From positions 11,214,886 through 11,278,885 of the forward strand of contig NC_088789.1 in the NCBI RefSeq assembly GCF_949628265.1: a DNA stretch of 64,000 nucleotides. The letters run 5' to 3'. The number at the start of each line of letters is the position of its first letter. Position 1 is the stretch's first letter. Below are positions 4,501-62,471 of this stretch, piece after piece. Origin of the DNA: Cloeon dipterum (taxonomy: Eukaryota; Arthropoda; Insecta; Ephemeroptera; Baetidae). The translations under genes were made by a program, and so were the position numbers. The notes beneath the pieces were generated by a model. The model saw nothing but the letters and a program-made list of their open reading frames with translations, was not told the DNA's origin and searched no databases.

Positions 4501-7500
4501 TACTTTCGGTTAATTTAAATGAACTGACTACTGGAGTTTCTTAGAACGTCCCACTTCACTCTGGTTTAGTTCTAGGCAGAGAAATACTTCGCAAAGCATA
4601 TGTTCGGGAACTACGCCAATTTGCTATGCTAACTTTAGGGAATCTTTATTTCCTTTTTCGTTTTTCAATTTGAAGTGACAAAAAAGTTGACAAGTCGTGA
4701 GTGCCGATTTTGTTTTAAATCATAAAAATGGCAACAAATTTACCTACATTGTTGTTTAGGTCGCCAGGGTCTACGATAAAACTACCAAAACTATTTCTAC
4801 TCAAAACATAAATTTCTTTAAAAAATAATATGCAACCGTGCAAATCCCTGGCAAGTCGCAAAATATAAGTAGAAATTCAAATTTACTTAATTTTGCGTAC
4901 TGTCTTAAATGAATTAACTGCGAAATGCCTGCTTGTACATATTACTAAAACTCGAAGAGATTGATGCTAGTGCCGCGGTGGCTTGGCTCTATTGTTACTC
5001 TTAGATTAGCATGCTAAGACTGACTGATTGGCATGATTTTATATTATGTAAGTGCTATGCCTCTCTTTCCCCTAACTGGTTCGGCTTTATGCATTTTTGA
5101 TCTCTTCGCATACCATTCATTTCACTGTCTCTTTTCGATTTGGACTGTTTGTGCATGATGAACTCTTAGCTCCATGAACACTTCTTTCTCGCTTCCTTTT
5201 TTCTACGATACGTTTTTTATACAATTCATCGCCTCTGTTTCCTCGATTGATTCCTTTCTCTTACTGATTCTATCAAGATCGATCAATTTCCCCTTGAGGA
5301 TTGGCATATTATTACAGCGGTATTTTCGAGCCCGTGGCGTTGCAGAAGGCTGATTGAATGAGCTCTGCTACGTCACGGCCCGTTAAATATCAATCACTTT
5401 TCAGTCCTTATAATTAATTTTTTTTAGCTTTTTCAAATTAAAAGTTTGTTCGATTTTGCCTTTTATTATAATAATAGATATAAGGGCAGTACGATTTAAT
5501 CGCAAGTTCAATGTTTCAGAGAGACCTACTAATCTAAATAGCAATTTCAAATTGTCATGAGAAAAGTAATTTTCAACAAGGTTTTAGCGTCGTATTCCGC
5601 ATTTGACTAACAGGCTTTGCTAAAGCGATGGCCGGTACCGCGAATTTCCTGGTGTGCTGGCGGATTCCTTAGCGGAATCCGCCGCCCTGAACGAAATTCG
5701 TCGTTCCGACCATCTGTAACAGTCGAAGTTCGGATAAAGTCTAATGATATCGCACAAAACATTTGAGTTATTCTCTTTATCTCTCTTAATCTTGATTGTT
5801 TCGCGACAACATTCTCACCCCATCCCTCGCCTCTGATCCTAACTTTTTACGAAGGCGATTTTGCACAGCAACAAAGCCAGCCGGCGCCCGAAATCGGCGC
5901 CGACCGAGTTGTTTGCGATGCTCGTCTATTCTTTTGGAACTTATTTATACCATTTCCCCTCCTAACTCTAACTAAGCCTGCATTATCGGGCCCTTGTTTC
6001 GAGGTGTAGCTGAGACAGATTGTGTTTGCAGTGCCTGCGTAAGCACCACGACACACACATACACCATTTGGTTCATTTTGAAGTCTCTATATGAAAGTAG
6101 ATTTCTTACATGATCGGTAAAGTCAATCGCACTCACACATACTCTCGTACCATAGAGATTGGCTCACTTTTCGTGTTAGTAAATTAAATATCTGGCGTCG
6201 TTCCGTCAACGTATTAAAATATCTAAATTACTAAAATAAGAACAACTACTGCATCTTATTTTGTTACTAATCGCGTCTTGCCCTTTATGACTCGCATTAT
6301 TTCCACTCTCCTCGGATAAGTGTTATTCACTTGTATTATGTGTGGGTGTTTCTGTTTTATATTATATACTCTACGTAATCAACCTTTTTACCCACCCTGG
6401 CCGATTTAAATTAAGTTCGAAACCAACGGAATAAATGTGTTGCTCTTTTCAATGTTGCCTGCTGAATGTTTTATTTTATTTTGAAAATATTATATACTAT
6501 CAGCAATCAGAACTATTGATTTAGCCTTTATACATATTACTGTACCAACAACCTTCAGTATTATTCAAGTAATTAATGTTATTGATGTTGGTTTGGTACT
6601 CTTAAAACCTCACACATATTTTGGCGTTACACCTCGGGAGATGTGGTTCAATGGTGTAAGGCGGAGTTTAGTCACAAATAATAACTAGAAAATATGATAA
6701 AATGTATTTTAACCGTTTATCCAATGATAAATAAATAAATTGACTCTTTTAAAACTAAATACTAATTCTGGACTAAATAAACAAAGCACAGTTTAATCAA
6801 ATCCACAAATTAATAAATTTTAAACTCTATAACATTAATGCTATAATAAATTCTTTTCAAGGTCATTCAACGTTCTGCTTCATTTTAAGTTTTGTTACTT
6901 CGTTTTCCTGTGCTTCGTCCATACAAGTGAAACACTATGCGCAATGCGTTCAAAAAGCAGCGTTGTCTTCTTCCCGACTCACCTTGGCAAGACAAAATCG
7001 ATATTCCAGGCGAACGAGTCCGTATAATAGTCTGAGTGTGTTTATTCCCTGGCCAAACGGCCTCTCCTCCTCTCCCGCTCGCGTTTAGTCTTTTCTCGGA
7101 TCAGGATTCCTTTTGATGTGACTAAACTCTAAATTATTCCTCCACCTCCTCACTGTTAGAATAACTTAAATGTTTTGCTCGCGCTAATGAAACGGAATGC
7201 GTTTAATGTATCAAATATATTTAACTTTCCTGCATTTTGCAAATATAAAAAAAACACACACGAGTGTTTATTTTTCGAATCGCAATGACTGCTCCGGTCA
7301 TTTGGCTTGTTTTAACTAAGCGAGTCATGCCAAAAATCGGAGCAGTCTGCCGATTGAAGACAAAATGTATGCATATTAAGACCCCAATTTGTCAAGCTAC
7401 TGTTGTGCATACGAGAAACAACCACACGGTGTTCGCATCGACTGTTTCAGGGAATTGGAAGCCTTTTCAGTGCGTTGAAAGTGGTTCGACTCTTACGACT

Positions 7501-10500
7501 GGGACGAGTCGTAAGAAAGCTGGACCGATATCTCGAATACGGCGCTGCCATGTTGATATTGCTATTATGTTTTTACATGCTGGTTGCACACTGGCTAGCG
7601 TGCATCTGGTACTCAATAGGGCGGTCGGACGCCGATAACGGTATACAATACAGCTGGCTATGGAAGCTGGCTAACGTCACACAGAGCCCCTACTCGTACA
7701 TCTGGTCCAACGATTCAAATGCTCCAGAGCTGGTCAATGGGCCGACGCGCAAGACCATGTACGTGACGGCCCTCTACTTCACTATGACCTGCATGACCAG
7801 TGTCGGCTTCGGCAACGTAGCCGCCGAAACCGATAACGAGAAAATCTTCACCATCTGTATGATGATCATCGCTGGTAAGAACCGAATTTTTATTCTGTCT
7901 GCTATATATTAGAAATCTCTATGACAACTCTACTGAACATTTTTCGAATAAATTCAAACTGTAAAAGAATTATCGATGCTCTAGTGCTGTTTTTAGAGAA
8001 ATTAATTTATCTAGTTGCAGAACATCTTCAAAATTTATTTTGTGACAACCGATATGTAAATTGTGGTTTTTTGCTAATGATTAACGCTGAGATCCTCCTG
8101 TTTAGCCTTACTCTACGCCACAATCTTCGGTCACGTGACCACCATCATTCAGCAAATGACATCAGCCACTGCCAAGTACCACGATATGTTGAACAACGTG
8201 CGCGAGTTCATGAAGCTGCACGAGGTGCCGAAGGCGCTATCAGAACGGGTTATGGACTACGTCGTCTCCACGTGGGCCATGACCAAGGGCTTGGACACGG
8301 ATAAGGTAAATCAGGTCGGTCAAATTTGGGGCGCTCCTCCGGCTCCGATTCTACCTCCCCGACTAAAGATCACCTATTTTTGGTCTCACTCTTTCTCGGA
8401 CAAGATTCTCTTTCTTACTTGCCTTCCTGTCGACCCTTCCCGTCTTTCACAGCCACACACTATCCCGGAACAAAATAAAAACATGATACAGACACCATAT
8501 ATGTCACGAACAGCTTCCTGGAAAATCACTGGCAAACGCAAAAGTTGAGACGATTGTTGTTGCTAGCGCTGTTCTTCCTTGATACATCCATTGCAACTCG
8601 AATACATTTTAGACCCGGCCCATAGATATATTATTTCACCACTTTTAAAACAAATTATACTATATATGTCTGTTGTGTGACACGTTATTCGTGTTGGAGA
8701 TTCCAAACAATCATCCAGCGCTGCTGTTTTGCATGTTTTGGGAGGTTGAGACGTGTTGCTCGATTTGTGTGCTACACATTTCAGGCCCGAAGCTTCAAGG
8801 CGAATGGCAGCCTTAGCGGGGACGGTGGCGGAAATGTGCCTGAGATGCTTGAGTCGACGGAATTGACGGAGGTAGCTGGAAAATTATTCTACTAACGAAT
8901 CCTTGATTTGTATTTTGATTGCCTACTCTCAGATTTTATTTCAGTGTTTGCTATATATCTGAATCTCCTATTTACTTATTTATATACCAAACCTATTTTA
9001 TCGTTATATCACATGTTTCTTTAATCTAGTGTGACTTAAAAAACTAGAAATTTTACCGCAGACACCTCTCGACAATAGACTGCAAATTATATTATTCCAT
9101 AAGAGGCGGTTGGCGGTACAATCGATTTGCGCTTCGCCACGTCTCTCCTTTTCAGTAGTTTTGAAATTTGCGATTTCCATAGAAATGCTAAGCGCCTATT
9201 TTCATTTTTGCTCGATTGTAACATAAGCAATCAAAATCCAGTAGGCATGTGACGTTCTAGTCCGGCAATCACACGCTAATAGACTGGCAAATTGTTATAT
9301 TATTCCAATGACTCACCTGCCTCCGTCACTTCCGTAAATACAATTCCATACATACTTTTTATTTTGACTTGTTTTGCCAAACACGGCTTACCAAAACTTG
9401 TTTGTTCGTGACGACCAGCTCAGTTTTTTTGTACAAAATTTTATAGTCAATAAACATAAAAGTCTTGCTGCAGTGACCAACTTGTATAAATTTTGCAGAA
9501 ATTTGCAGCATCCGAAACACGCCACGCATATCACTATACGACACCCACGCAACAGAACACATTATAATGCTGTTAAATACACACCAAATCCCTGCATGCA
9601 TCTGCATTTGTATCCCCCATTGCAATGGATGTTGAACTCTTGTGACATACATGATATACAACTGTCCCTTTGAACGGCAACTCTAGAAAGTAGAACGAAG
9701 CGATCATTGGGAATTTAAAATTCACTTGCTGTTGAGGTCGTTTTGTTCGAGTTGAAATTTCCAATGGTTGAAGATCGGATGCATGACCTCGAACGTATTA
9801 TCCCCTCTCAGAAAATTCTCCCATTTGCAAATACATGCACACACTCCCCTAAGCATGTTCCTGGCAAAGTGACACCCTGATAGTTGTAGCAAATCTTGCA
9901 TTTGTGCTTCTCTCTGTGTTTCAATAAATAACTGTTCCCTACGTAATATGTGTGTGTTTGTAAACGAAATTTACGTGTACACTCGGAAGATGCCTTCATG
10001 TGACTATCTTAAACCATTGCTGCTTTTCGTATCAACCTATGACCTAAGATTTTTTTAAAAAAGGTCTAGACTCAAAAAGGTGGTCTTTTGGGGAAGTGAA
10101 AGCACTCTCGGTCCGAAAAATCGGTTCAAACTTAGTACAACGGACCGCACGAGTGGTGGAGTCGGTGTGTTAGAAAACAAAGAACAGGCTCGTTGTGTGC
10201 GCCTTAGCCATCTAATTAAAAGTATAAATAGCCTCTGGCTAATTTGGTTTGATGGATGCGAAAGAGAGAGTGCCGCGTGGTTATTAATCGGAGCTCATTT
10301 ATCCATCCATCTATCTGTGCGCATTTTGCTTTCCATTTAACTAATTCGGGGCGAGCGCTGGCCGATGCAGAGCGCAAGAACGGAACGAGTGATTTATTGC
10401 TAGCCCATCTCATGCACTCTCAGCATGATTTGCATGAGACTCGAGAGTTCTCCGCTAATTAACTGACCGAGGCACAGATACTCTCTTTATCACTCTCGCT

Positions 10501-13500
10501 CCCTTTTCTCTGCTCTTCCTAATTTAATGCATATTCGATCACTTCCTCTCGCCGCAATGACTCTGCCTCTCTGATTGGATTTCATTGTTGTCTGTTATTG
10601 CCTCGTCGCTGCCCAGGTGCTCAACTACTGTCCCAAAGACATGAAGGCCGACATCTGCGTGCACTTGAATCGCAAAGTGTTCAACGAGCACCCCGCCTTC
10701 AGGCTGGCCAGCGACGGCTGCCTGCGGGCCCTCGCCATGCACTTTTCCATGAGCCACTCAGCGCCTGGTGATCTTTTGTATCACACGGGCGAGAGCATAG
10801 ACAGCCTCTGTTTCATCGTCACCGGCTCCCTCGAGGTCATCCAGGATGATGAAGTTGTTGCCATCCTCGGTATGTATTTCAGCGCGCCTGCGGTCACAAC
10901 GGATTATGCAACCTGCTCGCCGCAACTGTCGGCAATGGTTGCATAACTCGAATTTAGGCCTTGAGTAATGATTGTCCGACATTCCTCTTCTCTTTTTCCT
11001 CTCTCTAGTTTGTTTGCACAGGGTTGTTGTGTAAAAAACCTAGCAGTGCGAATATACTCCACAATCGAGGTTTAAAATTTCATTTTATCTCACAATCCAG
11101 ATTTTACTATTTAATTTGTTTTGTTCGATCCTCTAGCCGTATATTCTAAAAAAGTGAACTTGCTGAGTTAGAACATAAATTAAGTTAAGAGGTATTTTCA
11201 GCTAAATACGGCTTCAATTAATTATCAAACCAAATTTGCTAAAATTATGAAAAAAATCATGAATCTTAGGAAAGGGTGACGTATTCGGCGACGCATTCTG
11301 GAAGGATGGCGGGGTTGGCCAGTCTGCCGCGAATGTTCGCGCTCTTACTTACTGTGATCTCCACACAATCAAACGAGACAAACTGCTAGAGGTGCTAGAC
11401 TTCTATCAAGCGTTTGCCAACTCATTTGCCCGCAACCTTCTTTTGACCTACAATCTAAGGCATCGGGTGAGGAACTGAATTCCATTATAAATTTTTACTG
11501 CCAAACAGATAATTTATTTCTAGTGGCACACTGTGCAAATCTTTTTCCGTTAAATCAATTTGTATGTCTCGTCCTATTTCAGCTGATCTTCCGCAAAGTA
11601 GCCGACGTGCGGCGAGAAAGGGAGCTCGCCGAGCGCCGGAAAAACGAGCCCCAGCTGGACCACAACCAGGACCACTTAGTACGTAAAATTTTCTCCAAGT
11701 TCCGCCGTGGCACGGCCGGCGCCAGCACGGCGGGCAGCAACCACGCGGGGACCATGACCCCGGTGGCCACCCCCGACGTCGAGAGGGGAGGCGGGGGTGG
11801 TGCCAGCGACTCGGAAAGCGCGTGCAGCACGCGGCTCGGCTCGGCCCAGGAGGAGCAGTGCCTCGTGGTGGCGACGACCACATCGGTGGCGCCCGCGGCG
11901 CCGTCGCGGGCCGCCACCCGCTGGGGCCGGCTGCTGGGCAGCGCCAGCAGCGGAGCCGAATCCTCCGACAAGGAGGGCCGCGCCCCCAGTGCCAAGGAGC
12001 GGCCGGCGCCCACGCCGCCCACCGGCGGATCCGGCAACAAGGTGTTTCCTAAGCAGACGACGCCGCCGCAGCGAGCCACCACCTCTGCCGCACGACAGGA
12101 CACGATCGACGAGATTGTCGAGGTGAAAAAAACGCTATTAATGGGTTATTACTCCAATTGGACTGAGACGGAATTAAAAGAAAAGGAATATTTAAAATAT
12201 CAAACTAAAAAAGTGCTTTTTATGATAAATTTAATTTTATGTCTTTTTTATCGTGTGTAAATTTTGAAAGCCTGGTTGGCAAGTGGCATGATTTTGATAA
12301 AAAAAAATAATTGTACGTGTAAAATACTTGAAGTAAATAAATGCTTCGGTCTCCTATTTAATTCAAACAATAGCACTGCGTTGTTTTATCTTTCGAAAGG
12401 AAATAAAACGTAGCCTTTTGCGCCTTACCTATATGATTTAAACTGTCAAACCCAACATAATTTTCCTTTTGGGCTAAAACTGAGTTTACCAGACCATGCC
12501 CTTTTGCAGTAAAGAAGCATTGCCCTTAACAATACATTTTAATTTAGAAAAATATCTTTAATGAAATTTTAAATTAAAATTCTTTTGAATGTGCTTTTAA
12601 ACGTTATATTTCCAGGGATCTTTACAGTTTTCTTCTATTTTTATACATCCAAAATATATAAGCATAATTTGAGCATCTCACATATTGATGCAGGTGGAAG
12701 AGCGTCGAGCAGCGGCGCGAAGCGCCCTGCGCAAGGCCGAGAGCAACGACAGTGGCATTCTGCGGTCCAGCGAACAGAAGCTCTCGGAGGCGTCAACAAC
12801 GACAGCCAGCTTTGCGCCCAGCGCCGTCGCTGCGGCACCAACAACTGTCGTGGCCCCAATCGTGGCACCGCTTCCCGCTCCTGAGCTCCAACTTCTTTTG
12901 ACTTCCATAGCTGAATTTAAGGTTCGCGTGATTTGGAGCCTTTAAAATTTTCGTTGTTGGTAGTTGGTTTAGAGCTTTGCAACGCTCCAGTTAAAAAAGG
13001 AAAGTGCATAATATTATAATATTCAAATAAGCATTCACTGGACTGTTCTCATTTCTTTTGACTTCAACTAATTGGAGACAAACACAGGAATAACATTTAT
13101 GGAAACTTTTATTGGTGCCATACTGGGTCATTATTTTATTCAATAAAATTTTATTCAGTTAAAAGCTATATTATTACAGCCAATTCAATGCTAAATTTGT
13201 TTGCTAACACTTGGTATTAGAAAATTTTAACTTTCAGAATTTACAAACTATAAAAAATAGCGAAACCGGTTAATTTATGCTTTGTTTCTTCAACCAGTCA
13301 TTTTTGCTACAGTACAAAAGAACAGTAGGATTTAATTTTACATAGAACAGATCTTAAAAATTAAGTTCCCAAACTATAACAATTATGGTTTGTTAATATT
13401 TGGTGCTGCGTTACATGTCAAATTCTTTTACATTTCTCGCTTTTGAAAAAAAAACAATCGCTTTTGCTTCCTTGGTCTGTATTTGACCTCAAATTTAATC

Positions 13501-18436: not shown

Positions 18437-18775
18437 TAGTGTCTTTGCATTTACCACAACGTCATTTAATTCATTTGTTGACTGGCTGTAGCAATTAATT
18501 TGTTAATAAATTAAAATTACTTCTAAAAGTGAATTTAATTTAATTTCGATGATCCACACACATACGATGCCCGGTAAATAATTAAAACATGAGCTCGCCT
18601 TTTCCTGCCTTTCTTACTCTGGAAAAATTCGAAGATGGTGTGAACGTCCACTCCCCAACAAGAAAAAACAAAGTTGAAGAAGTGGGAGGATTCATATTAT
18701 TTCGATTTTGAGTTTCGCGCCCAACTAACGACAACGCCGACATCTTTACTTCTATTTAGACACTATTGGCCATTG

Positions 18776-20747
18776 ATGAGTAAACAGAATTTACCGACAG
18801 TGAGCAAGCAGCAAGCAATGGAGTCCACCGCATACAAACAGGCGGCGATCTCTTTTAAAAACCTAAATGACGAGTGGAAAGTGAAACCGAGGAATCTGGA
18901 CAAGATAGGGCAGATTTTGTCAAGGTTAAAGGTATGTTCAAAGCTAAACCAATTCCATTTTGGGTCGTTCTTAATTTTGAAACTTGAAACTAGGGCTGCG
19001 GCTTGCGTAGCGTGTTGTATGTTGTCAAGTCATTGCTTTCATTACATTATTTGAAGGCTTAGTGTCTTAGTTCATTTTTGTTTATTTCATTTACATATTA
19101 CTTTCTCTCTACAATACTCTGTTCAATTAATGTACATACTGCAAAATATGAAATTTGTCATGATACACTTTTCTTGCAGGTGGAATTGACTCAACTCGTC
19201 TTCCTTCCCACTGATCAGACTACTGCCTCCGAGAAATGTCTCCTCCTCGCTCGTAAGTTTCCTTATTCCAGCCTGTTCAATGCATTTTAAAAATTTTTAA
19301 ATCTGTGGGTTGCCAACGACTCTTTTAAAATTCTGTTGTGGTGAACTCCTCTCATTTGACGCTCACTTTTCAATCCTTGGTCTGTTGGGAATAATCAATG
19401 TTGTATAATTTTGTCCTATATCCTACCGAAAAGTGTGAGTTGGTCGAGAAGTTTTCCATGCACACCAAAAATTCAATAAAATTAAGTTTTTACTTTTCTA
19501 ATACAGGGGATACCTTGGAAATTGGAGCACAATGGAGTATTGCCAAGAAAGACATCCCTGCCTTCGAGAGATACATTGCCCAGCTTAAACCATATTATTT
19601 GGACTATGGCAAGCACGGAGATGAGAAGTAAGACAAACATTTTCACTGATTGTCTTGGGTTTTTCATGGGCTTGTTTCTATTAGCACTGGTCTTCTGGAG
19701 TCCCCGTACAAGTATCAGCTTCTGGGGTTGAACCTTCTGTACCTGCTCTCGCAGAACCGAGTGGCTGAGTTCCATACTGAGTTGGAGCTGCTTCCACCAG
19801 ACCAAATCCATAATGCATACATTAAACATCCGCTTTCCATTGAGCAGTACTTAATGGAAGGCCGTTACAATAGGGTAAGATTCAATTCAATAACAAAATA
19901 TACAATATTTAATTAAAAAACTTATTGTTAGCTTTATTTCTGACATATTTGCAAATAATTAGCCTGATATTTAAGTTTAAAATTCAACTTTTGTATCGGT
20001 CAGACCAAGACTGAGTCTTTTGGTATGTGTCTTTACCTTGACTCACAGTGCTAAAGTCACTGTCCAATTTTTTTAGGTTAGTAAATTGTTAATAACTTTA
20101 TTCATTTTACAGATTTTCTTGGCCAGGGATAATGTTCCACACCCTGACTACTCCTTCTTTATGGAGATTTTGCTCTCAACTGTCAGAGATGAAATTGCTG
20201 CATGCATGGAGAAGGCTTATGAGCGAATCTCAATGCCTGAGGCAGCAAAAATGCTTTACCTCTCTTCATTGGAAGACGCCAAGACTTATGGCAGACAGGT
20301 AATATTTTGCTTATAACTAATACTGGAAAATATGCATCAAATAATACCACGTGTAGTGCATAATGTAGAAATGAACGGGTCTATTAATTATTCTGTTCAT
20401 GCCTGGGATTAGAATAATGGGAAAGAAGATTTCAGAAGTATCATTTTTGCTGATACATTCAACTTAAGCTCTGGCTTGTGCAGATTTTATTTCATTTTTA
20501 TCTTAACTTGTTCACATTGCCTGCATTGATTATAACCAAGCATATTAAAATACACCTAAATTACATTTTTTTTAGCTGAAATTGAGTTTTTTTGTTTTTA
20601 TTTCAGCGAAACTGGAATTTGAAATTGGACAACTTCTACTACTTTGATGCAATTGAAGAGAAGAAAACAGAGGACCACCATATGCCATCTAAGGAGCTGT
20701 CTGAGCAGTTCATTGAGTACGCACGCGAGCTGGAAACAATTGTCTAA
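18776..20747 (+). CDS. Rpn12: 26S proteasome non-ATPase regulatory subunit 8 (Rpn12)
   Basis: Subunit of the lid of the 26S proteasome 19S particle, needed for degradation of ubiquitinated proteins. Exons 18776-18931, 19180-19252, 19507-19627, 19685-19874, 20113-20298 and 20607-20747 give 288 residues ending ELETIV. Diagnostic blocks are [38 protein letters not shown] followed by [29 protein letters not shown] and [15 protein letters not shown], all typical of the PCI-type PSMD8 family. The start at 18776 ([12 protein letters not shown]) is chosen by position; an upstream in-frame ATG at 18674 or an internal Met 15 codons downstream (MEST) cannot be excluded. A possible polyadenylation signal ATTAAA lies at 20833. 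Confidence 0.96.
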
Positions 20748-21780
20748 CCTTAACATTAAGCTATATACTTTGTATTTAAAGTCAACTCTTTGAAACAAGT
20801 TCTTTGGGTTTAGAATTTAATATGACGTTTTTATTAAACTAAAACCCAAATGTGACTCACTCTTTATATTTCAACTACTGCTACCATTGAATATACTGAT
20901 TTGGATGAATGATTTCTCCATGGGCACTTCAGAGCACAACTTCATTAACGCTCATTCACTGTGCCTAGCACTATATCAAATACTGAAAGTTTAAAGCATC
21001 CTCAACAAGAGATCTTTCTGGAAACCTATTGGAGTCGTTCTTTTTTAGTCAATAAAGTCAAGAGAGCATCAAATAATATCACTTCTTGAGGAATTAGACT
21101 TGGAAAATTATACATGTTGACGCTGTTATCACCTTGACCGTCACCATCGTTAAGAGACAAAATGCGTTTCATAAAAATAATACGTGAAAGTTCAGATATA
21201 CTTAATATAAAATAAATTGACTGCTTTGCCGCCATTAGTGCACTCTATAAATGAATTTCCATAATTCTAAAAAAATGAAGCCTCAAAGTTAAGGTAAGAA
21301 ATCGTATAAAATATTTCATGTTTCGCTTTTAAGCAGGGTTTGCAAAAACCGCTGTCCCAAATATATTCACTATTGCAAATTATAAGTCTTTTTTAATGAT
21401 TTTGAGCACTTGCGAGGAATATGCATATTTTAGAATATATTTTGCGTTGGATGATAAAATTATGATTAAAAATTACTCTAGTTACGCCGATTATTTCATA
21501 ATTCATGAATACATACAATCATTATTTCAGTTCAGTTGCTTCTATCACCAATTTAGTATCGCGCGCAATTTGTTTAAAGATAGCAGGTACTGGCCAATCG
21601 GGGAGCGCAACTTGGATATAAACAAGAACAGATGATTGGCCTGTGAACAAGACGGGAGGCCGGCTGCGTGTTCCGTGTGTTGTCAAACCTACGTCAAAAG
21701 TAAAGTAAAAGACGCGAAAAAAATATTTAACTTCCTGGATGAAATGATCGGCACTCGGCTTTGAGAAAAGCGAAAGAAGA

Positions 21781-24700
21781 ATGATGGACAGTGATTTGAT
21801 TTCTAACATCAAGTCGGCCATCGAGCAAGGCAGGTCGGACATAGTCCGGACTCTGCTTGAGGCCTGCGACAAAGGTTTGAAAAATATTAGATAACGTTTA
21901 TTATTTGTGCTTGCTTGTCAAATTCTGGCTCTCTACATAAACGTTGATAAAAATTATAGGGCAGGAAGGTTTAACGAAGGACAAGGTTTTGAACTCGCCG
22001 CTCATTGACGGAGGAACGCTTCTTCTTTACGCCACTAAAGTGCGTCTTTATCTAATTCGTTGTTTACATTGCACTGATGTAAATTGTGTTTACAGCTCGA
22101 CCAAGGCGATGTAGTGCGTACTCTGCTCTCTGCTGGAGCCGACCCCGGTATTCAAAACTCAGCTGGTGAAAATGCCCTGGATACAGCTGGCACTATCCAT
22201 ATGAAGCAGATTTATGTGGATGAACTTCTCAGGGCTACTGGAACATCTGAGTATTTCTTTGTCAAACATTTTTAGTTTGAAATGTATTAAAAAGAACTTG
22301 TTCTTATTTTTACAGCGTTGGTCGTGTTTGTCAATTGATTGCTGCGGGCTTGAGTGTGAATTCGTATGATAGCGAGGAGAGCAGAAACACCCCTTTGCAC
22401 TGGGCTGCTTCATACGGAAACCGGGACATTGTCTCTTGCCTTATTCGTAGGCCACTTTTTCATTCACAAATTTATGTGTTTTATAATCTTTCCATTTAGA
22501 TCGTGGAGCAAATGTCAATGCCATGAATTCGTGTGGTGCCACTCCACTCCATGATGCAGTGTCTCAAAACAATGTAGAAATTGCCGAAGAGCTCCTACAG
22601 GGGGGTGCCAATCCCCTTATTCAAGCTGTGCGGGGGTGAGTGAAAGTCCAGTTAAAGAGAAGAATATTTTTGTCTAAAAGCAAAAATTTTCCTTTAGGAA
22701 GTTTTCTGGTCAGACGTCTTTGGATTTGGCTTGCAACAAAATGGAACTTGCCTCTCTGCTAGACCGATACACCACTTTCAACACAAAACCAAACATGCCT
22801 CTCGACATGAATGGTGGTCTTTCAGTTGAAGCCAGTGGCAGGCTTCGGGCTGCTTCTGTCCGCTCCCTCTCAAGTGAAATGTTTGAGAGCTTCGACAGTA
22901 CAAGAAAAATTTCCTACGCCCCATTTTCACCAACCAGCCCTCTTAGCAAAGGCACCCTCAGCCCTCAGTTTGAACATGTATGCAACACCCATCAAAATCC
23001 AGCCCAATTTCATGTTTTTCCTTTAAGGTTGCGGAAAAACTGGCCAGCTGCAATTTAAAATCTCCAGTCACGCCCATTGTGACAAGGACTAGTTTGCAAC
23101 TGCTGTGGCCGCAGCCACAGAGGATTCAGGAGCTGTCTGGTCCTAGTTTTGTGCCTGATGGAAAGGTGCATGTGATGGTTCACCCAAGCACAGAACCTAT
23201 TTTAAAGTATGTTTTAACGGCTTTTGCTAACAAATGTACTTCTTAAAGATTGATACTTAGAATTTTGGACATTTGGGAAGCCAGCAGAGCCGCCCTGCAA
23301 GCGGTGAAATTTTCCGTGATGGTTGGAGGAGTACATCCTCCAGGAGGAGGGTTGTCTAATAAGGAAATTAATTCCATTGAATGCTGTGTTAGTGATAAAA
23401 TTTTCTCGTCAGTCAACATGTACCAGCTTCACATCACATCCAATATTGTAAGATTCTACAGTTTCTATCAGGAATTTTCCATTTACTTCTTTATCTTTGC
23501 AGATAAAAATAAGTGCTGGAAGCTTGTGTGCCTTGCACTATGCCTTGGTCACTCTGACGCAACTAATTCGTCTGAGCAGTGATGAAGATGGTCTGGCTCC
23601 AGTGATCATCCAGGACCACCCCGCGCTTAGTCATCGTGGCGCTCTCATTGACATTTCACCGCTCAGCCGCATTCCATCTTTGGTGAGAATGTATACTCAT
23701 ATTGAATTTGGTTCACAGTGGGCAAAAATGAACTGCTAAATTCAATTTAACCACTTTAAAACAGATCACGCGTTAATAGTTTTATTAAATTTTTTTGCCA
23801 ACGGACTATTTCGTCCTGGTGGCGTAAAAATCGCGCATGTGTTCTTGGTGTACCCGTAAAAAGCGCGCACGTGTTCTTGGTGTAACCGTAAAAAGCGCGC
23901 ATGTATTCTTGGTGTACCCGTAAAAGTTGCGCATAGCTCCAAATCTCAATTTTACAGGAGAGAGAAAAAACTGTTTCCCCACTACAATGCATGGAGCACA
24001 TCGAAGCTGTTGCTGTATTTGAATGCTGTTATTAGATGCACAAATGGTGGCTTACAATTTTTATCAAAAATTCACGAAGCAAAGCCCAAGTTCCCACTTT
24101 TCAAATAGGCTTTCTTCCGAGACCTGCATGTTTTAATAAGAAATTTCATGATTTTTCTTCAAACCTAGTGCCTAATTATATACTTTCCAACATTAGCTTG
24201 TACTTTAATCATGAGCGATTAATTTTTAGTTTTCGGAGATTTTGCATTTCAAAAAAACATGACATTTTTTAGGTCAAATGTCGTTGTCATTAAAATAGAT
24301 TTTTTAATCTAAACTCAAATTTGAGAATGAATATGTCGACATTTTTAATTTTTTTCATATCCATTTTGTAGAGCACAAAAATTTAAGTTAAAAACGTAAA
24401 AATTTAAAATGGCATTTTGTATCATTTTTTTTATTAAAAAATGAGAACTTCGAAAAAACTTGTTTTTCAAGGTTAGTAAAAAACGATGATCGACCAAATC
24501 TCGACTTCTAATCATCCGAATTTCAAAAACCACATACCGTTAGACTCGTCTTGACATCCCTAAGTGCAATAAAGTGGTATGATTCCCACCAACCCCCAAC
24601 CCCCATTTAACCCCCTTAATAACGTGAAATTTAGCATTTTTTCGGCCTTTTCAACACCTTAGCACAACGTTGACGAGTAATTGTCTTCTTCAAACCAATT

Positions 24701-27700
24701 TAGTTACTTAGTTCACTTCAATACGAGTCAAACGATACTTAATTTTTGAAATTAGGACCACTACAACCTGATATTTGGGTGACACAAAGTTTTTTATTAA
24801 GACGCGGATGCATTAAAATGCTCGATGAGCACCAAATCTCGAACTAAACACAAAAAGGTGGTCCTATTTACAAAAATTAAGTACCGTTTGACTCGTATTG
24901 AAGTGAACTAAGTAACTAAATTGGTTTGAAGAAGACAATTACAAGTCAACGTCGTGCTAAGGTGTTGAAACGGACGAATAATGCTAAATTTCAGGTAATT
25001 AAGGGGTTAAAAGGGGGTTGGGGGTTGGTGGGTACTATACCCCTTTAGTGCACTTGGGGCCGTTAAAACAAGTCTAACGGTATTCGGTTTTTTCAAAATC
25101 GGATGATTGCAAGTCGAGATTTAATCGATCATCGATTTTTAGCAACCTCGGAAAACAAGATTTTTCGAAATTTTCATTTTTTATTAAAAAAATGAGGAAA
25201 AACGCCATTCCAAATTTTGACGTTTGTAGCTTAATTTTTTGTGCTCTACAAAATGGCTATGAAAAAAAAATTTCAATATATTATTCATTTTAAAATTTGA
25301 GTTTAAAATCCAAAAGTTAATTTTTATGACCTTGATCTTTGACCTACCACTTTGAGGTCAACATAAAAGCTGTTTGCCATGTTGAAACGAGTTAAACGTT
25401 TATTAAATTTTTGTTATAGTACACCCCTGAGCAAAAAGCTTTGAAGTATGCTCAAATAATTCCCAGATTGTGACCTTTGAACATCCGCGTCGAGTTTTTG
25501 GATTGATTATACCCCCAAATCTCAGGTTCGAACCAACAGAATTAAAAAATAACCACCGCTAAATTCCAACGGTGGTTAGTTTTTTCAATTCTAATGGTTA
25601 AAACCCGAGATTTGGAGTTGCAAAACTATCTCAGTATTGTCATCATGCGCGTGTATGTGGGCATTCTGCAAGAAGTAGTTTTCCTTTCTTTGTTTCTCAT
25701 CATCCTTACAAGCTGCTCTAACAGAAGTATTGGTATTGCATTTTATTTTACTAGTTTTCATGTATTATACCTTTAACATACTTCATTCACATTACCAACG
25801 AAATTATAAACAAAATGAATATTATGAGAGGTGCATGAGGTATGCATGTTTACGCGGCTGCCGGCTACTATCCTTACTTATTGGCGTTGTCACTAGATGA
25901 TGTTCCTGCTGTCAGAGGAGCATAATATTTGGATGGGGCATGTAATAGGCGCCAAAAATTTAAAATTTAAAAAAAAATGTGTTTGGTAACCCACTGTTAC
26001 TTACGCACTTTTTCAGATGCGCAACTTTACACATGCGCGCTTTTTACGGGTACACCAAAAACACATGCGCGCTTTTTACGGGTACACCAAGAACACATGC
26101 GCGATTTTTACGGCACCAAGACGATTTGCACATATTTTTGCTGCAGATAATAATTGTTTATTTTCCATAAAACCTTAAATATTTTTTCTGAAGAAATTAC
26201 ATTATGAAAATTTTCCTCTCAAAGCGACAGAAATAACTTTATTGTACTGTCCAACAATAGTTTTGGCTTCAGCCTAAAGTCCCGTATCACAAACCAAAGG
26301 AAAAATATTGGTGATTATTGAGATATTCCCCCAGTCAAAATTTTAATTTTTGGCGACGCTTGTAGTTAAGAATGACTCAATTTAGTATGAATCAACTCTA
26401 CCTCATTTTCAGGAGTGCCTTTTTAACAAAATAGAGACCTGGTCGCAGTTGAAAATGAACTACCTCCACCTGTACACCAGGCTTCGGCCTAGTTCTGATT
26501 GGCAGCTCAGCTATTCAAAAAGGTCTGTGGGAAGTTCAGGGATCAAATTAAATATTAATTTGGCGGTGTAGTGAACTGATGAGCGTTGCTCGTTACTGCC
26601 AAGATCGCTTCCTCACGTTGGTGCCTGTTTTGGATGTCGAAGACTGCGTGGAAGAGTCACAGCTCTCACTCATGTGGCCAGTGTTTCAGCAACTAGTTGC
26701 TAGTTTCCCTAACGTTGAGTAAGTGTTAAATAAACATTTAGAAGTAAGTTACTGATCTTGCTAAGATCTCGCACATTATTTTTGGGGGAAATTCTCTAAT
26801 GTTAAAACAGCCATTAGGGTAATTAGGAATCAAAAGTTTGAAACGAGGGCTGTAATTTAATTAAATTAACTTTTTCTTATTCAAATCCATTGTTCTCAAC
26901 GTTTTTATTTATCTTTTAGTTAGTGTTTCATACATTAAAAATGCTTTCTTGTTCTTGCAGGCTAATTCACATAGGGCCTCGCTTGAGCAGCCTGCTACTA
27001 CCGCAACAAACACCAAATGGTTTTATCAATGGTGATAGTTACCATGCGTACACTAATTCGCTAGGTATTTCAAAAGTTTGGCATCTCCTCACTCTTCCAA
27101 CACATGTGACACTCATGCTGTGCTGCAACAATCTAGCGCAGAGTTATGATTTGCCACCAAATGTCATCTTGATGGAGTATGGATTCCAGGTTAATGAATT
27201 TTCTTGATCCTTTAAAACTCTCTGTGTATGCCTTAGATTTTATATTTTTGATTGCTTACTCAAAAATTTCTTAGATAATTCAACAAAATTAGAATTTCCG
27301 CCTTTGATGATCTTACTCTTGCATTGTTAAATTTGCAATGTAATCCAGAGGCTATAACAATTTTGAGAGCTACACGGGAAGTGCTAACTCTAAAAGCTTT
27401 TGGTTAACACTTTGGATGCTCTCATACAAACGACATTTTAGAATAAATCAAACAGACTTTTACTTGCATTTCAAAACATGTTAATAGGAGCAATAATTAT
27501 TATTGGATGTAACCTATTTATCTACTCTGACTTCAAAGGCTTTTTAATCTATCTTCGGTGTAATTGATTTCAGGCTGATTATGATTTCTTGGGGAAAGTG
27601 AGACCTCATCTTGATGAAGGCAGGGCCATATGCTTGTGTCCTGGAACAGCAAGTTGGAACAGGTATAGGATTTTTATTTGGCAATCATTTTAACCTATCA

Positions 27701-29159
27701 GCTATCTCCATCTAGTCTTGCTGGATGTCCTGAGGCAGCCCTTTGCAATATCATGACGTCAGTGCAGGTTGCTGTTCAGTCAGGCACTCTGGGAATTGTG
27801 GCTGCTAATTGGTCAGGCCCTCATCATCTGACTCCATATCCATTTTCTTGGCCTGGATTTGTCGTTGCTGCGGGGCTCTCTTGGAACTCCAGTGCCCACT
27901 GGGTGAGGAAAGCTCAATTTTATAAATTCTTGGTGAAGTCTGATATTAATTCAAACATTTGGCCTTAAAAAATTAATCCTGCAATTAATTATGGATTCAA
28001 TCTTTACTGTTACAGTTTATTGTTTTTCACACTATCAGAAAATAATTTTTTTAAGCTACAAAATACATATTTTTTATTCTAGGAGTTTGTGCATTCATCA
28101 TTGGCGCCTTTACTTGATGCACATGTGTTTTTGGACACGCAAGGCCACATTGGACAAGCAATTCTAGAGTTGGGACACGCAGACACTTTGGCTCTGAGGG
28201 CTTCCAGAGGACAAGCGACTTCTGACCAATCCGATCTTCCTGCACCAACTTGTTCGCTTTTACATTGCCTGCTCACAGAACCTAACAACGTTAGCCTGGA
28301 GTTCCTTACGCCAGAACTATTTGCTGTAAAATTTACAAACAAAATTAATTAATATCTTCAACTAATTTATTTACACTTGCAGAGAGTTACCAAGCATGTG
28401 AAACGATGCCAGGCTAGCCTGCTGAGGGCTCATCTACATTGCCATTATTCAGAAATGGTGCTTCAAGAGTTGCAACTCACAGCAGACTTGATGATCACTG
28501 CTTGCAGGTAAGGTTTTCATAAAATGGAACAAAAACTCATTAGAATAATTCGCCAAGCCGTGTGGAAAATTAGTTGATGCGCGTAGTATCTATTCTATAG
28601 TCATCATTTGAGATCTGTGAAGACTGCATCTACTCTTTGTTGCTTTTGAAGTGCAAGGAGGCCATACTGAATTGTAAAAGGTGGTAAACTAAAGTCAGCA
28701 AACTTCATTGCTTGCTAGCTACCACATTGCTATCAGGAGTCAGCAGGGTTCCTTTTCTTGACGATTTTCTTTCAATAAAGCTTTTCTTATCTACTGAAAG
28801 TAGTTTCAAACCAGTTTTGAACTAGCTTAGCATTAGGGCGTCCTATGACAAATTTATTAAAATGATTACATGAACTATATCTCAATGGAGACTCTAAAAT
28901 ATATTGCAGGATTGGCCGTGCCTTGCTCAGCGTGGGCATGAACCCCAACAGCAACATGGGTCTCTCTGTGATAAACCTGGGAGTGACAAATCTGCCTCCA
29001 ACCTTCCGAACCGACATTGCTAACAAGTTGCTGGCGCTGATTGAACAGTACCGGGGCACTTGGTTGCAGCGCCATTTGCCTGCAGGGCTGCAGACCTCTC
29101 TTGTAGCGCTGACCCAAGTGCTCAACAGCTTTGTCCCAGACGACAATGTCAATTCCTAA
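21781..29159 (+). CDS. Ankyrin-repeat protein fused to a GH20-like (beta-hexosaminidase-like) region
   Basis: Seventeen in-phase exons give 933 residues: 21781-21874, 21960-22039, 22096-22250, 22316-22446, 22500-22635, 22698-22977, 23028-23206, 23261-23447, 23503-23682, 26413-26522, 26572-26718, 26961-27189, 27574-27662, 27716-27902, 28083-28325, 28383-28507, 28910-29159. Residues about 40-220 are ankyrin repeats (NTPLHWAASYGNRDIVSCL, GATPLHDAVSQNNVEIAEEL). A Ser-rich linker follows. Residues about 350-730 resemble glycoside hydrolase family 20: a GH20b-like pre-domain (SAGSLCALHYALVTLTQLI), IIQDHPALSHRGALIDISPL at the barrel start, and CPGTASWNSLAGCPEAALCN near its end. The usual HxGGDE catalytic motif is replaced by HIGPRLSS (about 563-570), so enzyme activity is doubtful. 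No signal peptide is seen, so it is inferred cytosolic. About 200 C-terminal residues are helical-looking. Function unknown. Confidence 0.85.
23824..23940. repeat. 32-bp subterminal tandem repeats, left arm
   Basis: Three full 32-bp units (23824-23855, 23856-23887, 23888-23919) and a partial fourth unit. Each begins GTAAAAA and contains CGCGCATGTGTTCTTGGTGT with few substitutions. Such arrays are typical transposase-binding or foldback-forming modules. Confidence 0.85.
25513..25617. repeat. Nested palindrome in the right arm of the foldback element
   Basis: About 105 bp that folds on itself: TAACCACCG and CGGTGGTTA surround a short loop (CTAAATTCCAA), and the pairing extends outward through AGAATT/AATTCT and CAAATCTC/GAGATTTG. 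It lacks an equivalent in the left arm, so it is probably a later, smaller insertion. Confidence 0.6.
26017..26111. repeat. 32-bp subterminal tandem repeats, right arm (inverted)
   Basis: Inverted counterparts of the left-arm array: two full units (26048-26079 and 26080-26111), a 17-nt truncated unit (26031-26047) and a degenerate end (26017-26030). Copy number differs from the left arm, suggesting unequal slippage within the array. Confidence 0.85.
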
Positions 29160-29964
29160 TTATTCCAACATTCATTCTGCTGGTGCTTTATTTGCATTCC
29201 TGGATTTCCTAATAGGCACAGTTTTCATTTAGGATGTGCTGTGATTAGTCTCAACACAAAAAAGAATCAAAATTTGAGTATTTAAGTTTGCATTTTGCGT
29301 GGCGGTTGTTATACAGTCATTTGTTAAAACATCAGGTCAGTTGGTCGATAATTAAAGCATTTTTGAATTTGTATATCCAATCGTTTATTCTTGACGTGTA
29401 TTATCATTCGCATATTATGGTATTATTTATGCACTTGAGCACACGGTGTTATTATTTTATTCAATTAAAAAATTAGTAATCAGAGAAAATTAGTATTTTA
29501 TTTCATTCCTGATGAATGGTCACATATTATATTAAATATCTCTTTCTATATTATCACAGAGATATCTTCAAAATAAATAATTCTTGTGAGTATTTTTAAA
29601 TACAGATTAATTTAGATATTACAAAATGCCAGTAAAAAAATCAAATTTTTAATAAAGGCTTGATACTAATTTGTGATTTGCGTGTGCGAGGTCGCTAGCA
29701 TGCCTTGCTGGCCATGGGCAAAAGCGATCCTGGCACAGGTAAGTGCGACACACGCGCCAGCGCCGTGCGCGGACCGTTGATGTACTGTTTGCAGGCGGCG
29801 AGGGCTCGGCCGGTCATCAGTTCTGCGCCGAGGCCGAGTTTAGTTCTACTCGTCTGCATTGGAGTCGACGAAGACGAGCACTGCAGTGTGAACGGGCGCC
29901 GCACATTTCGGAACTACTGCTTCTGAAACGCACACAAGATCGAGTGACCCTGCGGAGGCTCACC
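29160..29964 (+). other. 3' UTR of the ankyrin/GH20-like gene, intergenic, Appl 5' UTR
   Basis: AT-rich 3' sequence with AATAAA-type signals near 29572 and 29652, then a sharp shift to GC-rich sequence from about 29690. The GC-rich part leads into the Appl start and is probably its promoter and 5' UTR. It contains TCAGTT (29817-29822), an insect initiator match, at a plausible distance (about 145 nt) from the Appl ATG. A CAG/gtaagt donor at about 29739 could also mark an upstream UTR exon. Confidence 0.45.
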
Positions 29965-32900
29965 ATGTTGGGACTGAGCAACCGGGCTCTAGTGCTCTGC
30001 TGCCTCGTGCTGGCCGTCCGAGGGCCTTCGGTCCAGGTGAGTGTCCCTTTTCCAGCTCTTTCCGCGGCTAGCCGCGCTGAGAGCGCAGAGATCGATAGGG
30101 GCCGCACTTCATGCGCTTCTCGCCGCGGCCGTCCGCCCGCCCATCGATCCTCTCAGCTTCTTTTCCGAACGCCTGCTGTCAGCCTTTTCCGAGGAAAAGC
30201 TCTTCCTCGCCCCCTCTTCGGCCCGACTGGCTACTCATTTAGCCGGATCAGCCAAGCAAATTCGCGTTTTTGCAGCGCAATGTGACAGGTGCACCGCGCG
30301 CCGTGTGGGTGGCAGACCAAAGAACAAGTGGTCCTTTTAGAGAAACAAAACTCAAAACAATAATTAACTTTAGATTTTTAGCGTCTACACCAGGTTCATT
30401 TTTATTTATATAAAATTTTAATATGTTGGGTCCATTCTGTGAGATAAAATATTATATGAACGGGAAAAAGAGCAAAAATTTAGAACGCAGCAGTATTTTG
30501 ATAAAAAAAATTATGCGGTGACAGTAGCAGCCACTAATTTGACAAATTCAAGAATGCGATTTTCAAGATTTGTAAGATGCCTTACAAGCTATCTAAATAA
30601 ATTTGACAGACTCGTACTTTACAGTTAGTGATCTTAAAAATTAAAGTAGCAGACCGTTAATGGTTCTTTTCGAGCACGCACTGTGTAAAGAAATGTGCAA
30701 TTCTAAGAAATCCAAGTCGTTGCAAACAATGCCGACCCCACACCTTGAAAATGTTCTTTTCTTGGAAAAGTCGACAACTACAATTAAAAATAATTGTCCG
30801 GAAAATGTCGTGGGTCAATTTTAACCCGAGTAATGTTATGAAAATGTGTGCAACCCGTTTGAATAACTAAATCTAAATTTGGAACTAAACCTTTGTCTTT
30901 GATCCGCGTTTTATGTATTTTACAAACATGGCAGTACCAAAATTCCGTATCAACTCAACTGCAGGTATTGAGTGGATGCTGAAAAGCGCCGACACTTTTC
31001 ACTTTCAACCCCCCAGTACTTTGTGCATGGCTCTACCTTTGACATGAAATTATTGCATTGAAAAGACTGGTGTTGAATTTGCGCCGCTTTTCTTTGCTTG
31101 TGCAGCCATGAGCCAGTCATCCGTCGTTTCTACTCTTTCACACGCTCAGCCAGGTTAAAAGGGAGAAAAGGCAGGTTTGCAGCTCTGCAGGTTCTGCGGT
31201 CTGCGCCTAGAATATCACTGAAACCGCAGATTTGCGCCCTCTACTCTCGAAGCTTGTTGTTTGTACAGCCCAATCCTCACCGCAAGCAGCAAATCACAAC
31301 ATTATCCGATTATTAATATGCGCGGCACGCCCTTTGCGTAATTCGGCGTCACGCAGAAACGAACAAGGCCCTTTTAGCTTCGCAAGACGTCTCCGGATGG
31401 AAAAAAGGTTCGCAACATTCAGCTGACGATTGCACACTTCTATGACTTCCCTGGTGGGTTCAAAGTCAATAATGGAGTAACCGACAGCCAAATCACTTGC
31501 GGCGATTGCAGCATCACGAACAATATTTAGTTCTTAGAATCTCGCGCACTGGGTCTGCACATTGATTCCAATTTCGCCGCTTCTATCCTTGATGATTATA
31601 ATATAAACCGAGGGCTCTTTAAACTCATTTGTTTCAAATAATTCTAAAGCGGAAAATCGACCGTGTTCGGGTTTTTTTGCGAAATTTACTTAAATATATG
31701 ATCACGATCAGAAAAAATATATCATTTGGATAATATATCAGCGATTGTACAGAAAAATAGGCATTTTCGTAAGCCAAACAACAACTTAAAAACCTATTTC
31801 AATTTTGCTTATGGGGGAACACAATACAAAAGGAAACAAAAACGAAAAGTCTGCTGCGCAGAATCTTGAAACGTGAGAGCCGAGTTGGCAAATGATTTCT
31901 ATTCGCGAGTGCTGAGTTAAAGGCGCTGGTTGTTGTAACTTCAACTTCGCAGTCATGGATAATTACATATTAATCTCGCAAGTAAAATTAGTCGCTTTAT
32001 ACCGAGCGACAGAGCAATTAGGCCAAACTCGAGCTAGCTCTGATCGATTGAGCTTACAAAGTCGAGCGGAGAGTGTCGTGAATTGAAGAAAAGTGTCAAG
32101 GGAACCGCGCCAGATCCTCCGCGTTCAAGAAATTGATCGCCTTTTCTTTGCTTTGCTGTGACGAAAAAGGAATCATCATATCGACAAGTTCACTTGGTGT
32201 CACAGTGTGGTGAAATGCTCCTTCAAACCACAGACGGGGGCCCAAATCTCTTGAATTATATATTAATATTCTTGATTAAATTCGAATCGAAAGAAAAAAA
32301 AATTCAAAAGCTTACCGCATGATGTGTTTCTATAATTTTAAAATCGTTAGATTTGAAATAACAGGATCATTTCTAAACCCTTTGAGCTTTGTGGAATACT
32401 AATCCACGTCGTGTATTGTTTTTTTAACTCAGGATTCTTTTCCACTGCACAATGGTAATGATTTACATCAAACGGTATTCAGCTGGGAACAAAAGTTGGA
32501 AGTTTTGAAATGAATAGGACATTATTCAAATTAAGATGATTTATGTATATAGCATCTGGAAATAAAGGAGGAGGTATAATTGATAAGGGAATCAAGTTCG
32601 GAGGGCGAGGTGCGCGCATGGGAAACTAAACGCAGAGATATGGAATATATGCTGACTGGCAATGTTTACCTGAGATAGTTTACGACTTGACTCTTTTCAT
32701 TCCGAGAGTTTAACAGATAAGGGGGAGCAAGTCGCTTAAAATAGCTCCACAGTTTTGAAAGCATTTCCTGTTGAGACTTGGAAAATGTTAATTCTTATTT
32801 TCTTTTTGGATTAGGCATTGTAGCTTTCAATGAACAATATAGAGGTGATAAATTGCTGCACACAGCATTCCGATTCCATTCAAACCGTTTGAAAGAAATG

Positions 32901-61900: not shown

Positions 61901-62471
61901 AATAAAAGTTTTGTTAATTTTTAGTGCGTCGTCTCGTCAGTAGTTGTATTGATATACAGCAACAGCACCATGATAATTTAGGATAATAGGTGATCGTTCT
62001 TTTGTTCACTTCATTGTGCTTCCTGTGTCCTGTGGTTAACCTGGCTAAGACTCTCATTACTAGATTTGCTCAATGTCATCCCCTACAGTCCTTGCCGGTT
62101 GCCGCTAATATATTTCACGATCTTTTCCTCCTTCCTACTCACAGCTAAAGTAGCGTCACCTATCGAAACAGGTCAAAGTATAAAGCAGCAACGAAACAAA
62201 AATTTTACTGCCAGTCTGATTCAGTCACTCCTTCCCTACTCCTTCCCGCTCGTTCTCAATGCCACGCCCCCTGAGTTATCATGCTTACCATGAGGCATGC
62301 CATTTGAATCTAAAATCTAAAACACAAAACACATATATACATAAACACAACAAAGCGGTCTTCATCCTTCATCTTCATGTTCATGCCAACCTGTGCCAAC
62401 ATGATGCCGACGTCTGATTAGCTTCGAAGTTAAATTTTTTGGTTTGACAGTCACGTCACACACATTCGAGG
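58954..62471. other. 5' flank of the PDZ-like gene and TDP2 promoter region
   Basis: 3.5 kb with no certain gene. The part from 58954 to about 60450 is probably the first intron of the minus-strand gene. The rest, up to 62471, is shared upstream sequence between it and TDP2, which diverge here. A weak open frame at 62066-62293 has no recognisable domain and is not called. Confidence 0.5.
60451..60572 (-). promoter_or_regulatory. Candidate first (untranslated) exon and initiator of the PDZ-like gene
   Basis: On the minus strand, TCAGTT (insect initiator consensus) lies at about 60573-60568. It is followed about 26 nt downstream by GGACGG, near the usual position of a downstream promoter element. 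A CAG/gtaaac donor ends the block at 60451. The ATG inside it opens a frame of 16 codons only, so the exon would be a leader. Position and orientation fit the gene starting at 58952; evidence is motif-level only. Confidence 0.35.

Follow-up and report, generated by a model that had tools for sequence, protein, structure and literature searches.

A Cloeon dipterum gene that joins ankyrin repeats to a hexosaminidase-like body and has probably lost the catalytic pair

Within a 64,000-nucleotide window of the Cloeon dipterum genome (positions 11214886-11278885 of contig C4), a single gene on the forward strand (21781..29159 in window coordinates, which are used throughout) encodes a 933-residue protein in which N-terminal ankyrin repeats are followed by a body of the beta-hexosaminidase family GH20. 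Judging from its sequence, this is very probably a pseudoenzyme, and one that lacks a signal peptide. That it is something other than a normal hexosaminidase we regard as almost certain, as a matter of judgement rather than of computation, and on balance we lean towards an inactive enzyme that serves as a scaffold inside the cell. Among glycosidases, a hexosaminidase body that is complete yet dismantled and carried by ankyrin repeats would be out of the ordinary; its best matches in the searched collections are prokaryotic. The gene raises the question of how, and at what time, an enzyme that cuts sugars turned into a scaffold.

The initial annotation of this DNA had proposed an exon chain that stays in phase over 933 codons, and this was borne out. 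The chain comprises 17 exons on the forward strand: exons 1-6 at 21781-21874, 21960-22039, 22096-22250, 22316-22446, 22500-22635 and 22698-22977; exons 7-12 at 23028-23206, 23261-23447, 23503-23682, 26413-26522, 26572-26718 and 26961-27189; and exons 13-17 at 27574-27662, 27716-27902, 28083-28325, 28383-28507 and 28910-29159. All 16 introns have GT...AG borders, the phases close across the chain, and the spliced open reading frame of 2802 nt (933 codons plus TAA) holds no internal stop, while 55 stops interrupt each of the other two frames after splicing. The start codon at 21781 is the first ATG to follow an in-frame TGA at 21745. GC content by codon position is 0.55/0.43/0.49 in the spliced gene against 0.33 in its introns, 11 of which are 49-85 bases long. 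The intron that separates the ankyrin side (exon 6) from the GH20 side (exon 7) has 50 bp (22978-23027), which is too short for one gene to end and a new one to start, so that separate transcripts for the two halves are unlikely. The ankyrin and GH20-like halves are one open gene. One could still imagine a faulty gene model or a gene in decay, since the joins are drawn from sequence alone, yet the consensus sites throughout 17 exons, the single open frame beside two frames with 55 stops each, and the good preservation of the domains that flank the lost site make this exceedingly improbable. Intron 9 contains an element that moved recently, and the reading frame is unbroken to either side of it.

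The ankyrin-repeat region occupies residues 1-226 (exons 1-6, 21781..22779). Pfam Ank matches with an E-value of 1.5e-25 in the whole protein and 5.5e-29 when the ankyrin piece is searched alone, and Ank_2 matches with 5.3e-22; the PF00023 match reaches 88.3 bits against a cut-off of 21.1 and falls into three stretches, so that the several repeats expected of an ankyrin-repeat protein are present. The searched genome comprises 190 Mb in 10 contigs, and this part is similar to very many of its ankyrin stretches, with at least 147 matches among the best 150 of 789 candidates scored and a best E-value outside the gene of 7.5e-13. The solved structures that it matches are likewise ordinary ankyrins, and its resemblance to so many of these sequences therefore reveals no special parent. 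Long open frames with ankyrin stretches, of up to 2699 stop-free codons, lie on C4 (~28.6-36.0 Mb), C1 (42.2 Mb) and C5 (29.1 Mb), a pattern suggestive of an expanded set of giant ankyrin genes, perhaps without introns. As the initial annotation had noted, there is no sign of a signal peptide: inspected by eye rather than with a predictor, the N-terminus shows no hydrophobic run of the kind expected in a secreted hexosaminidase, and it reads as an ankyrin helix that begins at the first ATG after the in-frame stop. Between the two halves lies a Ser/Thr/Pro-rich linker (residues ~227-317, 22780..23102), which is crossed by the 50-bp intron. By eye it is rich in Ser and holds several basic and Ser/Thr-Pro motifs, and phosphorylation could regulate it.

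The remainder of the protein corresponds to a GH20 body in three parts, namely GH20 domain 2 (Glyco_hydro_20b, residues 318-452, 23103..23616), a GH20-type barrel region (residues 453-728, exons 9-14, 23617..27902 with introns included) and a helical C-terminal domain homologous to that of prokaryotic relatives (residues 729-933, 28083..29159). The initial annotation had joined ankyrin repeats to a beta-hexosaminidase-like region, and both sides of that proposal are upheld, the second by prokaryotic GH20 homology from end to end. The profile search that it had suggested against the Ank and GH20 families was clear for Ank and divided for GH20. In Pfam, Glyco_hydro_20b matched with E 0.0044 in the whole protein and 7.9e-5 for the piece alone, where 23.8 bits fall short of the cut-off of 26.1; one further, weaker related model also matched, and the GH20 barrel model PF00728 found no match in the protein. 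NCBIfam gave a single weak match, far below its cut-off. The best matches among solved structures are GH20 hexosaminidases, at E 2e-4 and weaker. A tblastn search of plasmids was more informative: 15 records matched, three of them over at least 80% of the query, and an archaeal GH20 gene (Halomontanus rarus) was found at E 3e-22 with 95% of the barrel query covered.

From this archaeal protein we assembled a set of 83 relatives, made up of the best 80 of 291 prokaryotic genome stretches and three plasmid genes; these are the nearest relatives of one archaeal protein and not a survey of all prokaryotic GH20. The animal protein matches 83/83 of them in blastp (best E 2.8e-43 for L042, weakest 1.0e-17 for L011), with identities of 20.6-26.3% over the 71 alignments of at least 480 columns. 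At its widest, the aligned span usually covers residues ~317-926 and thus the 20b domain, the barrel and the helical C-terminal domain. Profile comparison with hhalign gave a probability of 100, both with the profile of all 83 relatives (E 3e-45, 577 columns) and with that of 39 (E 1.6e-44, 566 columns). A structure model of one relative (L012), built from an alignment of 54 of 80 loci, has a mean pLDDT of 94.5, and its secondary structure displays the 20b, barrel and helical C-terminal parts; the strands of the animal barrel were assigned from it. The order of a 20b domain followed by a GH20-type barrel, which defines the fold family, is thus present by sequence. When the profile of 39 relatives was compared with solved structures, 5a69 matched profile positions 80-610 and 2epk profile positions 99-605 of 619, while other GH20s scored better over shorter stretches.

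These comparisons indicate that the GH20-like part is a full GH20 body of the ~620-residue prokaryotic group and no fragment of a lysosomal hexosaminidase. The lysosomal enzymes with which it had initially been compared were therefore off target, the closest relatives found being the prokaryotic full-length GH20 group. A lysosomal origin was considered and rejected: the prokaryotic group matches from end to end, and the other GH20 genes of the genome are absent at E <= 1 with this query. A match of the C-terminal part to a type VI amidase (best E 0.01) was taken as chance.

The catalytic Asp-Glu pair, which closes strand 4 in GH20 enzymes, is present in 83/83 aligned prokaryotic relatives. At this point the animal protein reads HIGPRLSS (residues 563-570, 26968..26991), covering strand 4 and the former catalytic loop, with Arg567-Leu568 at 26980-26985. 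The initial annotation had placed this block opposite HxGGDE, and the register is backed by an independent stretch of the same genome. A HEXD-like gene carrying HIGADEV (several exons at ~3978-6200 of L100, contig C3, partly assembled) provides a 31-residue stretch that aligns without gaps to residues 539-569 with a score of 33, against 4 at the next best place, a score reached by 1 of 1000 shuffles. Two other GH20 stretches of the genome weakly favour the same register (P 0.086 and 0.075). Because the HEXD-like stretch fixes the register, the Asp is taken to be replaced by Arg567 and the Glu by Leu568, and the adjacent Asp-Glu of a GH20 enzyme is missing from the end of strand 4. Adjacent acidic pairs occur between the 20b and C-terminal domains only at 534, 538 and 650. 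As a check for a hidden catalytic exon, profile positions 217-357 were searched against every frame of 21001-30000 and found no match, in a search that would see only a well-conserved exon and misses real diverged ones.

The sugar pocket was then compared with that of Streptococcus pneumoniae GH20C, whose contacts, according to the part of the Trichuris HEX-2 paper that deals with them (PMC11308363), are Arg94, Asp222, Glu223, Trp266, Trp306, Tyr308, Trp373 and Asp375. Mapped by spacing and alignment rather than by superposition, their counterparts here are, in order, Pro467, Arg567, Leu568, Cys614, Tyr633, Phe635, Trp698 and Gly700, so that one of the eight is kept (Trp698) and the -1 subsite of a GH20 enzyme is largely missing. 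Pro467 directly follows the HRGALIDIS block of strand 1 (residues 458-466, 23632..23658), where the relatives have Arg. The same source describes Tyr309 and Trp339 as shaping the GH20C pocket and as absent from HEX-2 (PMC11308363); these two were left out of the mapping. With the catalytic pair replaced and seven of the eight mapped contacts changed, the loss of function initially proposed for this protein appears well founded, and hydrolysis is inferred to be absent.

The changes are unevenly spread. Of 136 near-invariant positions 57 are kept overall; at the ends of strands 1-6 the count is 9/36, against 42/87 away from strand ends (Fisher p 0.026), and for all strand ends against elsewhere the p-value is 0.049, both comparisons having been chosen after the alignment was seen. 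In the uncorrected alignment, 7/9 such positions are kept in the 20b domain and 10/15 in the C-terminal domain, with 5/17 and 3/17 in the helix 3-strand 6 blocks. This pattern suggests that the body of the enzyme is kept while its pocket is dismantled.

Several further observations weigh against this reading. On the register, the two prokaryotic stretches that were tried do not pick the 539-569 placement, the prokaryotic profile alone cannot place strand 4 (in an ungapped scan of five segments, 59 to 485 of 500 shuffles equalled the score), and MAFFT and hhalign put the strand 4 block in different places; in both placements the catalytic pair is still missing, its positions falling on a gap or on other residues. 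Inactive prokaryotic relatives may exist beyond the 83 nearest, and a single genome cannot show selection. Directly after strand 3 there is an acidic cluster, DVEDCVEES (532-540), that could in principle do chemistry, and a protein that had relocated its catalytic residues to such a stretch might still be an enzyme with a new substrate. We consider this very unlikely, as the standard pair is found in 83/83 relatives and the pocket residues of strands 3-6 are broadly changed. On the pocket itself, 6/13 near-invariant residues persist in strands 7-8, and among the seven changed contacts Tyr633 (for Trp) and Phe635 (for Tyr) stay aromatic, so that a remnant sugar platform is possible.

The last two points bear on whether the protein reads sugars. 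The initial annotation had suggested that it reads O-linked GlcNAc or glycan fragments, and inactive glycoside hydrolases can indeed act as binding proteins; in that case the barrel would still bind an aminosugar or glycan that it no longer cuts, with the ankyrin repeats as the link to a partner. Part of the wall formed by strands 7-8 is left for such a role (Pro659, Gly660, Thr661, Trp664, Trp698 and His703), much of it in or near the CPGTASWNSLAG block of strand 7 (residues 658-669, 27637..27725, spanning exons 13-14), as are the aromatic Tyr633 and Phe635. Against it, the end positions of strands 1-6 are mostly changed, and the seven altered contacts include those that surround the acetamido group in GH20C (Asp222, Tyr308, Trp266 and Trp306) as well as the holders of the ring hydroxyls (Arg94 and Asp375). 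The suggestion is thus not supported, and we rate a glycan reader as improbable.

Since most of the mapped sugar contacts and the catalytic residues are gone, a protein-binding or dimerising surface is likelier than a sugar reader. Ankyrin repeats bind proteins, and enzyme relatives without activity often become regulators. In the scaffold that we favour, the N-terminal ankyrin repeats would bind a partner protein, and the C-terminal ~610 residues would keep the three-part GH20 body of 20b, barrel and helical C-terminal domain. No sugar would be cut, since Arg probably replaces the polarising Asp and Leu the acid/base Glu, and the pocket positions at the ends of strands 1-6 are mostly changed; the retained surface and helical domain might bind another protein or dimerise. 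The scaffold role, a cytosolic or nuclear location and the partners are all putative. Alternatively, the protein might be a pseudo-subunit, like other pseudoenzymes that team up with active paralogues: it would associate with a working hexosaminidase in the same cell, perhaps the HEXD-like one, and control or position it. The HEXD-like gene with its HIGADEV motif is present in the same genome, the helical C-terminal domain is kept, and GH20 dimers, including that of murine HexD, are reported in the portion of PMC11308363 at hand; however, no 20b domain was seen in the HEXD-like assembly, which is partial, and we give this arrangement only a small chance.

The scaffold candidate can be set beside several known systems. 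The ~620-residue prokaryotic GH20s (Halomontanus rarus WP_276256663.1 and 80 relatives from Bacillota, Chloroflexota and others) share the same three domains and a CPGTSSWNSLAG-like block; they differ in having the catalytic Asp-Glu and the pocket residues, and no ankyrin part occurs within their aligned ~620-residue stretches (the upstream DNA lay outside the scan). Streptococcus pneumoniae GH20C (5a69) and Hex1 (2epk), the latter presumably from Paenibacillus, match most of the prokaryotic group profile; both are described as enzymes, and their mapped contacts are mostly changed in the animal protein. With HEXD and GH20 subfamily 1 (human HEXD, nematode HEX-2 to -5) the animal protein has in common that no signal peptide is seen, and its strand 4 block aligns to the HEXD-like gene of its own genome. 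In the available text of PMC11308363, HEXD is called nucleocytoplasmic, and HEXD and HEX-2 are active, unlike the state proposed here; an ankyrin part is not mentioned there for either, the word occurring 0 times in that text. Ankyrin-repeat proteins share the clear repeats of residues 1-226 and differ in the fusion to a GH20 body.

We found no description of a fusion of ankyrin repeats with GH20 or a hexosaminidase by title or abstract start among the matches listed from the openly licensed literature, nor did titles or abstract starts of openly licensed papers on inactive glycosidases, HEXD or GH20C hold anything on one. Arthropod chimeras with horizontally acquired parts, as outlined in the portion of PMC13389597 consulted, likewise combine an animal-type with a prokaryote-like domain, although the origin of the present gene is unproven. 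That 2026 survey, as far as its excerpted text goes, removed ankyrin repeats as a confounder, and its silence on such a gene would therefore mean little (PMC13389597). Automatic annotation can hide genes of this kind, Pfam displaying only a sub-threshold GH20 piece, and so can surveys that remove ankyrin repeats.

As to its origin, the gene has no second copy in the 190-Mb genome when the GH20 part is used as query, the 10 matches at E <= 1 all being its own exons. With the archaeal relative as query two matches appear, this gene and a GH20 gene on C5. Other GH20 genes are present, as judged from 21 exon-level Pfam matches in the genome, and the Asp-Glu motif can be read in frame both at the HEXD-like locus and in four further regions of the genome (L101-L104). 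In a quick tree (44 rows, 37 of them from the 83 prokaryotic relatives), five other prokaryotic GH20s were separated (SH-aLRT 99) from a set made up of the prokaryotic group, the HEXD-like stretch and the animal protein; the animal rows have very long end branches (5.1 and 10), with a warning from the program that long branches may meet, and subfamily 2 is represented by no animal row. A second tree, built with care, had 41 rows; the genome's own HEXD-like sequence, L111 and L011 had been dropped from it, which left 36 prokaryotic relatives, and holding these 36 as one clade costs 1.9 log units (p-AU 0.41, with no animal relatives of this kind in the tree). The constraint is not rejected, and transfer from prokaryotes is thereby neither shown nor excluded. 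Pattern scans with a few exact peptides, which reach close relatives only, gave no match in viral contigs, and in genome contigs the patterns of the animal protein gave 9 matches with 0 relatives among them. It is conceivable, if doubtful, that an animal lineage captured a whole prokaryotic-type GH20, joined it to ankyrin repeats of its own and dismantled the active site to yield an intracellular signalling scaffold; if this is true, such a chimera may escape surveys that filter out ankyrin repeats.

A mobile element of 2.3 kb with inverted repeats (23811-26124) sits in intron 9 (23683..26412). Its inverted arms measure 94 nt and are 95% complementary, and it also contains 32-nt subterminal repeats in three copies as well as nested inverted repeats. 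At least 23 copies of its first 250 bases, this one included, occur in the genome with 99-100% identity over 249-250 bases, six of them on contig C8 (40 of 59 candidates scored). The element is of a recently moving fold-back type with no obvious long frame.

Elsewhere in the window, exons of an ion channel lie at 2338-2850, 7358-7909 and 10575-10943 (Ion_trans 9.2e-15 and 1.8e-15); a piece that resembles a cyclic-nucleotide-binding domain scores below the cut-off, and the channel may be of the eag/erg type. Exons at 18644-20747 read like a proteasome subunit that we assume to be Rpn12/PSMD8, and the one piece of them that was scanned has no Pfam match at E 0.01. Downstream of the ankyrin-GH20 gene, a candidate signal-peptide exon near 29970 may start an amyloid-precursor-like gene, exons of which lie at 49313-50667 (APP_E2 2.9e-11 and 7.6e-60), and a gene start with a UBA-like domain (UBA_4, 1.5e-5) lies at 62448-62804.

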